From: Flavobacteriales bacterium | GTDB lineage: Bacteria > Bacteroidota > Bacteroidia > Flavobacteriales_D > Sanyastnellaceae | Length of the DNA stretch: 54,586 bases | Assembly: GCA_016780385.1 (NCBI GenBank) | Contig: JADHLY010000008.1 | Location: 1-54,586, forward strand | Direction: 5' to 3' | Part shown: in pieces, positions 48,411-48,812 of the stretch | Position numbering within the stretch: the first letter of the stretch is position 1 | Layout of the letters: the number at the start of each line of letters is the position of its first letter | The notes under the pieces: model-generated | The model's input: the letters and a program-made list of their open reading frames with translations, nothing else | Told to the model about the DNA's origin: nothing | Database searches by the model: none | Position numbers and translations under genes: made by a program

Positions 48411-48487
48411 GGGTTCTTACGGTGTGTAGTCTAAAGACGACAAAAGGTGTCAAAGCGGCTCCTACTTCATAACACAACACCCCTTTC

Positions 48488-48495
48488 TACGTTTG
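48488..48495 (+). promoter_or_regulatory. Exact TAnnTTTG box (TACGTTTG) for sRNA copy 1
   Basis: The box ends 4 nt before G48500, the predicted first base of RNA copy 1. A TTC at 48466-48468 lies 19 nt upstream of the box, a one-base departure from the -33 TTG. Confidence 0.6.
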
Positions 48496-48499
48496 TAAT

Positions 48500-48602
48500 G
48501 TCAACGGCGCGCATAAAGCCGTTGGTGCCACGAGGCAAGCGTGGCTGGCAAGCAATTTGGTTAAGTGAAGCGCCCTGGAAACGTCCGGGGCGCTTTCGTT
48601 TT
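48500..48602 (+). ncRNA. Tandem structured small RNA, copy 1
   Basis: The predicted RNA of about 103 nt begins at the base of hairpin 1: CAACGGC (48502-48508) pairs with GCCGTTG (48518-48524). Hairpin 2 is GCCACG/CGTGGC with a seven-base loop, in the segment 48528-48546. A 20-nt single-stranded linker (48547-48566) is identical in both copies. The RNA ends in a 12-bp terminator hairpin with loop AAACGT and a T-rich tail. No start codon with a meaningful reading frame is evident. Copy 2 begins 207 nt downstream with the same architecture. I do not recognise the family. Flavo-1-type RNAs of Bacteroidota are one possibility to test. Confidence 0.72.
48567..48602 (+). terminator. Intrinsic terminator of sRNA copy 1
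   Basis: GAAGCGCCCTGG (48567-48578) pairs with CCGGGGCGCTTT (48585-48596) around the loop AAACGT. The stem has 12 pairs including two G-T wobbles and is followed by TTTCGTTTT. Confidence 0.88.
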
Positions 48603-48694
48603 AGGGCCCTTTTTAGGTACAGATTTAAGGACGTAGGTCTTTGCTGACATGAAGCACGAAATGCCATCCTACACGGTACACTGAAGGTGGAATG

Positions 48695-48702
48695 TAGGTT
48701 TG
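48695..48702 (+). promoter_or_regulatory. Exact TAnnTTTG box (TAGGTTTG) for sRNA copy 2
   Basis: The box ends 4 nt before G48707, the predicted first base of RNA copy 2, the same spacing as in copy 1. No clear -33 element is visible. Confidence 0.55.
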
Positions 48703-48706
48703 ATGT

Positions 48707-48812
48707 GTTAACGGCACGCATTAAAGCCGTTAGTGCCACGAAGCAAGCGTGGCAGGCAAGCAATTTGGTTAAGTAAAGCGCCCTGGAAACGTCCGGGGCG
48801 CTTTTGTTGTTT
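48707..48812 (+). ncRNA. Tandem structured small RNA, copy 2
   Basis: This copy repeats the layout of the RNA at 48500. Hairpin 1 is TAACGGC (48709-48715) with GCCGTTA (48726-48732). Its closing pair is T-A, where copy 1 has C-G, a compensatory change. Hairpin 2 is TGCCACG (48734-48740) with CGTGGCA (48748-48754). The linker 48755-48774 is identical to copy 1. The terminator hairpin and T-rich tail end near 48812. Differences between copies fall in loops or preserve pairing, which favours a conserved RNA structure over a coding sequence. Confidence 0.72.
48775..48812 (+). terminator. Intrinsic terminator of sRNA copy 2
   Basis: AAAGCGCCCTGG (48775-48786) pairs with CCGGGGCGCTTT (48793-48804), 12 pairs with loop AAACGT and a TTGTTGTTT-like tail. 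The outer A-T pair replaces the G-T wobble of copy 1. Confidence 0.88.

Follow-up and report, generated by a model that had tools for sequence, protein, structure and literature searches.

What do the two nearly identical units that sit in tandem between gdhA and mce encode, and on what would their products act? The window is the whole stretch of DNA that was analyzed, 54,586 nt from a Flavobacteriales bacterium. The initial annotation of this DNA had proposed a duplicated regulatory RNA, each copy with its own promoter and terminator, and had suspected the linker within it of being a target-recognition site. The first proposal is supported by conservation, by covariation and by a conserved promoter and operator, in the absence of RNA data. 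The second gains support from the 3' half of the linker, UUUGGUUAAG, which is common to all related RNAs and whose complement occurs in mRNA start regions. Regulation by small RNAs (sRNAs) is poorly known in Bacteroidota.

Two tandem units between gdhA and mce

The predicted starts of the two units, G48500 and G48707, lie 207 nt apart (the repeat blocks, 208 nt), and the copies are 94% identical across 87 nt, which bears out the earlier description of a tandem duplicate between gdhA and mce. The gdhA product has a Pfam match to ELFV_dehydrog, and the glyoxalase-fold neighbor is read here as methylmalonyl-CoA epimerase (mce). All of the parts described from the letters alone were found in both copies: an exact TAnnTTTG box (TACGTTTG at 48488-48495 and TAGGTTTG at 48695-48702) whose end lies 4 nt 5' of the start G, hairpin 1, hairpin 2, an identical 20-nt linker and a terminator of 12-13 bp. 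The two differences in pairing between the copies, C-G versus T-A in hairpin 1 and G-T versus A-T in the outer terminator pair, are also as had been claimed. The features are as follows:

48426..48466 (+), phased operator of copy 1: GTAGT at 48426-48430, GACGACA at 48436-48442 and TCCTACT at 48460-48466, placed by a box spacing kept in 21 copies
48488..48495 (+), promoter box TAnnTTTG of copy 1, TACGTTTG
48500..about 48602 (+), predicted transcript of small RNA copy 1; 127.3 bits
48501..48525 (+), hairpin 1 of copy 1; three pairs with changes on both sides
48527..48545 (+), hairpin 2 of copy 1; its loop, AGGCAAG, repeats the start of the linker
48547..48566 (+), linker of copy 1, GGCAAGCAATTTGGTTAAGT; family seed module TTTGGTTAAG at 48556-48565
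48567..48602 (+), intrinsic terminator of copy 1; 13 bp, loop AACG, T-rich tail
48633..48673 (+), phased operator of copy 2: GTAGG at about 48633-48637, a TGACAT-type site at about 48643-48648 and TCCTACA at 48667-48673
48695..48702 (+), promoter box TAnnTTTG of copy 2, TAGGTTTG
48707..about 48811 (+), predicted transcript of small RNA copy 2; 131.2 bits
48708..48733 (+), hairpin 1 of copy 2
48734..48754 (+), hairpin 2 of copy 2
48755..48774 (+), linker of copy 2, GGCAAGCAATTTGGTTAAGT; family seed module at 48764-48773
48775..48811 (+), intrinsic terminator of copy 2

The motif GGCAAG(C) occurs twice per copy, once within the loop of hairpin 2 and once where the linker begins (48533-48539 and 48546-48553 in copy 1; likewise in copy 2), and the loop motif has variants in some copies. 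It is possible that the repeat is a duplicated recognition element.

Promoter and operator

TAnnTTTG at -12 to -5 is the box of the main sigma factor (sigma-A) mapped in Flavobacterium psychrophilum (PMC9723704), and the distance from box to start in both copies is the one mapped in that species. When 21 upstream regions were aligned on the box, they had in common TCYTACA at -28, a GNCTACA-like site at -52 and, at -62, GTAGG/GTCGG, the reverse complement of CCTAC; little else was conserved. The pattern TCYTAC-N22-TAnnTTTG occurs twice in the window's own genome, exactly at the two copies. As far as the sequence pattern goes, the operator looks like the site of a dedicated activator; the factor is unidentified.

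Fold and conservation within the genus

The predicted folds of the two copies beat those of shuffled sequences (z -2.5 and -3.6). An alignment of relatives without conserved pairing would have spoken against the RNA; instead, pairing was kept in a 20-copy alignment from the genus, where 97% of cells are paired, six pairs are changed on both sides versus 0.9 in shuffles, and the covariation score exceeds that of all 500 shuffles. These shuffle statistics are inflated by relatedness; slid controls also fall far below. Compensatory changes back three helices. Within the genus, hairpin 2 and most of the terminator stem are nearly invariant, and support from paired changes therefore comes mainly from hairpin 1 and two terminator pairs. 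This is a small correction to the earlier description. The linker segment GGCAAGCAATTTGGT is invariant across the 20 aligned copies, and the predicted ensemble leaves the linker open only in part.

In a first RNAalifold model, TTTG of the promoter was paired with CAAGC. This pairing was dropped because the promoter box lies outside the transcript, and the structure model was rebuilt from the start site. A small ORF with a conserved frame was not found: the G008 copy has a frame-changing insertion, and the stems change compensatorily. No ATG occurs inside either predicted transcript.

Of the 16 other genus genomes, 15 have a blastn match to the unit, with one to three copies each; no other genus has one, and phage records gave no match to the unit. 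The terminator was recovered in 16 of 17 genus genomes. The loci examined lie between gdhA and mce, apart from two extra G005 copies and from the loci in G003 and G005 that differ in one flank. Because features of copy 2 (TTAATTAAAG) are common to several species, the tandem pair, to judge from these sequences, probably predates those species.

Two kinds of rearrangement were seen in relatives. In copy 1 of G006 (L006, G006:C3:135378-135488, minus strand), the terminator hairpin is inverted and the rest of the unit is unchanged; thus, the hairpin was kept despite its sequence being turned round. At L015 and L016 (G003 and G005), linker and terminator are kept and an unrelated 5' part stands in place of hairpins 1 and 2; this comparison of sequences suggests an exchange of 5' bodies.

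A 3' module shared across the bacterial family

With a covariance model of the whole unit, 66 of the 114 genomes in the bacterial family were hit, and the hits included tandem clusters outside the window's genus. The part common to these hits is 3' only, and consists of UUUGGUUAAG, one to a few nucleotides and then the terminator, usually with loop AACG; the 5' parts differ among the RNAs that bear this module. We took TTTGGTTAAG sites from four genomes regardless of structure, with counts read from listings. A terminator stands directly after 6 of 9 exact sites in the own genome (at C41, C51, C60, twice at C61, and C62), and the corresponding counts were 4 of 6, 8 of 16 and about half in three relatives. 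Random window positions are followed by a terminator in 0.66% of cases. Only an alignment of the wider family makes the terminator covariation overwhelming: the model of the module alone has 12 pairs and 68 compensatory cells, reached in 0 of 500 shuffles. This model hits 107 of 114 family genomes, with 1-10 copies each, as compared to 3 of about 185 other genomes of the order; in a phylum-wide sample of 296, there was one weak module place outside the family.

No family in Rfam 15 matches the window or 16 other loci at the gathering threshold, and below it only chance-level hits of other families appeared. Flavo-1 and other Bacteroidota motifs in Rfam, likewise short structured RNAs of the same phylum, are among those that did not match. 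The literature, of which subscription journals were not covered, yielded no description of a family from this group or with this motif. As far as this coverage goes, the sRNA family is previously undescribed; it is present in nearly all genomes of a single marine Flavobacteriales family, and is apparently the first to be defined for this group.

Several other module RNAs are preceded by what appear by eye to be sigma-54-type -24/-12 promoters (GG-N10-GC in L110 and L170). Promoters of this type (TTGGCACGGGGCTTGCA and variants) were noted at L110, L127, L128, L027, L129 and L170, several of which adjoin a thiolase-like gene; examples are G000:C41:1785-1900 and G000:C62:10725-10815, both on the minus strand. 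Tandem clusters of three to four module RNAs occur in other genera (L113, L114, L119-L123). The first member of such clusters has, by eye, an ECF-like promoter (GAAACCT ... CCCCGTA), and several of the cluster RNAs carry repeated GUUAAG motifs. At L160 and L178, module and terminator stand directly after the stop codons of protein genes; some module RNAs may therefore be derived from 3' UTRs.

Predicted targets

The perfect complement of the module, TTAACCAA, occurs 16 times in the own genome, and six of these occurrences are the modules themselves. Of the remainder, one is located 18 nt 5' of the ATG for a secreted repeat protein of 2775 aa, which has a signal peptide, GCTDxxACNY repeats and a C terminus resembling a type IX sorting domain. 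The predicted targets are giant secreted GCTDPxACNYD-repeat proteins with the module complement in the translation-initiation region. In G017 and G027, independent exact sites precede homologous proteins, with UACCUUAACCAAAA exactly 8 nt before the AUG. The G091 ortholog, which was found by synteny and tblastn rather than by motif, has the identical 14-nt UACCUUAACCAAAA, again 8 nt before the AUG. Among these three related species, the 48 nt upstream of the site are 19-33% identical, which is about chance. A second G091 homolog pairs with the seed via two G-U pairs.

When 211 start regions from 320 kb of G091 were ranked by duplex energy, the top two were both members of the repeat-protein family, a result obtained with 0 of 300 shuffled seeds; the top 10 partners included eight signal-peptide proteins (1 of 300 shuffled seeds). 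This enrichment is not entirely free of bias, as synteny with the target guided the choice of stretch. For G027, 277 start regions from 400 kb picked arbitrarily were ranked, and the best is that of another paralog, of 2418 aa; beyond this top hit the enrichment is modest (8 of 200 shuffles). The own linker pairs with the own target at 14 of 16 positions, in register, and with the bare module this target ranks 4th of 339. Within the sequence stretches examined, only one of the five paralogs in the own genome has the site; the G006 ortholog has none upstream of its start codon, and signal-peptide genes are not generally enriched among predicted partners in the own genome. The evidence for a conserved unpaired seed complementary to translation-start regions, one mark of a trans-acting base-pairing sRNA, is strong in the relatives and weaker in the window's own genus.

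Targets reached through the other half of the linker, GGCAAGCAA, were also considered. Exact complements of it outside the RNAs themselves number 28 in the own genome and show no clear excess near ATG starts, and this candidate was rejected.

A proposed shared-seed mechanism

We consider it probable, though well short of settled, that the copies are genes for trans-acting, shared-seed sRNAs of about 100 nt with surface-protein mRNAs as targets, for which there are no transcript or interaction data. The conservation, the helices, the operator, the shared module, the taxonomic limits and the conserved complementary sites are observed; transcription is inferred. Each copy would be transcribed from its own TAnnTTTG promoter, probably activated by an unidentified regulator on the phased CCTACA-type sites, and the transcripts would end at the intrinsic terminators. 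Hairpins 1 and 2 would form the 5' body of the RNA, and the exposed linker would present the seed UUUGGUUAAG directly 5' of the terminator, as would many sRNAs of the family with different 5' bodies and promoter types. The seed would then pair just upstream of the start codon in mRNAs of the giant repeat proteins, which are probably type IX secreted, and pairing would block ribosome binding. Most likely, the sRNA family represses surface-protein translation, although experimental data are lacking; repression rather than activation, and hence the sign of regulation, is inferred from the position of the site before the AUG. The target in the window's own species is likewise an inference.

More tentatively, and with slightly more doubt than confidence, we suggest that the whole family, in which no Hfq is detectable, uses one 3' seed as the common address of many sRNAs under separate regulation, so that signals converge on the same surface-protein mRNAs. 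Different signals would converge in this way because sRNAs with sigma-A plus activator, sigma-54 and ECF-like promoters share the seed. We have not found a modular sRNA regulon of this type described.

An unlikely but not negligible alternative is that a shared RNA-binding protein, such as a chaperone or RNase adaptor, docks on the module, and that the variable 5' parts pair with targets. Hfq, for example, brings together otherwise unrelated sRNAs. The position of the module, always directly 5' of the terminator and common to RNAs with unrelated 5' bodies, would suit such a protein, as would the small number of perfect complements outside the RNAs themselves in the own genus. The known candidates fail, however, because Hfq was found in none of 30 relatives, in a search that recovered its positive controls, and RRM_1 proteins, which are present in other genera, were found in none of the 17 genus genomes. 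Several of those genomes are incomplete, but absence from all 17 by chance alone is unlikely. Moreover, a seed, unlike a protein site, predicts what is seen in three species, a perfectly conserved complement set at a constant distance 5' of the start codon.

It is far less credible that the units are mainly 3' ends, that is, strong terminators shared by gdhA and other genes and duplicated in tandem without any separate RNA. By eye there is no other obvious terminator between gdhA and copy 1, and the stop-codon-adjacent modules at L160 and L178 have the arrangement expected of 3' ends; yet hairpins, linker, promoter box and operator are all conserved 5' of the terminator, copy 2 has an operator and promoter of its own, and a single-stranded 10-nt element is unnecessary for termination. 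Least credence is given to a role as decoys. CsrB-type RNAs titrate CsrA, and repeated UUUGGUUAAG/GUUAAG motifs might similarly titrate a regulator, given that one RNA can carry several GUUAAG-like repeats in other genera; however, each window copy has a single module, no candidate protein is known, and the complementarity to leaders would be left unexplained.

Several known systems are similar in part. In enterobacteria, the sigma-E sRNAs MicA and RybB have separate bodies and act near the start codon of envelope-protein mRNAs; they are Hfq-dependent, have 5' seeds and rely on one sigma factor. The module RNAs would resemble them as several sRNAs with separate bodies that act on envelope-protein mRNAs near the start codon, but differ in the other three respects. 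The closest described system is FopS/GibS of Bacteroides (PMC11697453), which by analogy the module RNAs may work like; membership could not be shown, and the FopS structure is stated to be deposited in Rfam (PMC11697453). Both are multi-copy paralogous sRNAs of Hfq-less Bacteroidota with a shared seed, an intrinsic terminator and targets at the start codon of envelope-protein mRNAs. In contrast, the FopS seed lies in a single-stranded 5' stretch, whereas that of the module RNAs lies directly before the terminator behind widely different 5' bodies, and FopS binds the RRM protein RbpB, whereas no RRM_1 protein was found in the window's genus. Rfp18 of Flavobacterium psychrophilum (PMC9723704) is also a structured Flavobacteriales sRNA that affects secreted proteins (metalloproteases), but it is predicted to pair through its third stem-loop, and outside the present family the module gave only single weak hits. 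The family described here has an explicit seed, a testable target class in the giant repeat proteins and, within the genus, no known chaperone. It makes testable how base-pairing sRNAs operate in Hfq-less Bacteroidota and how these bacteria control costly surface proteins.

Other complements of the module

A perfect complement of the module, CTTAACCAAA, also lies upstream of a tyrosine recombinase gene (Phage_integrase), 15 nt from its ATG, at G000:C55:31998 (L143, L330). The same complement is part of a conserved intergenic element at G000:C38:63970 (L131/L297) and G006:C5:74573 (L136), where it is placed between a hairpin and a terminator-like repeat; this element is possibly an RNA sponge for the module.
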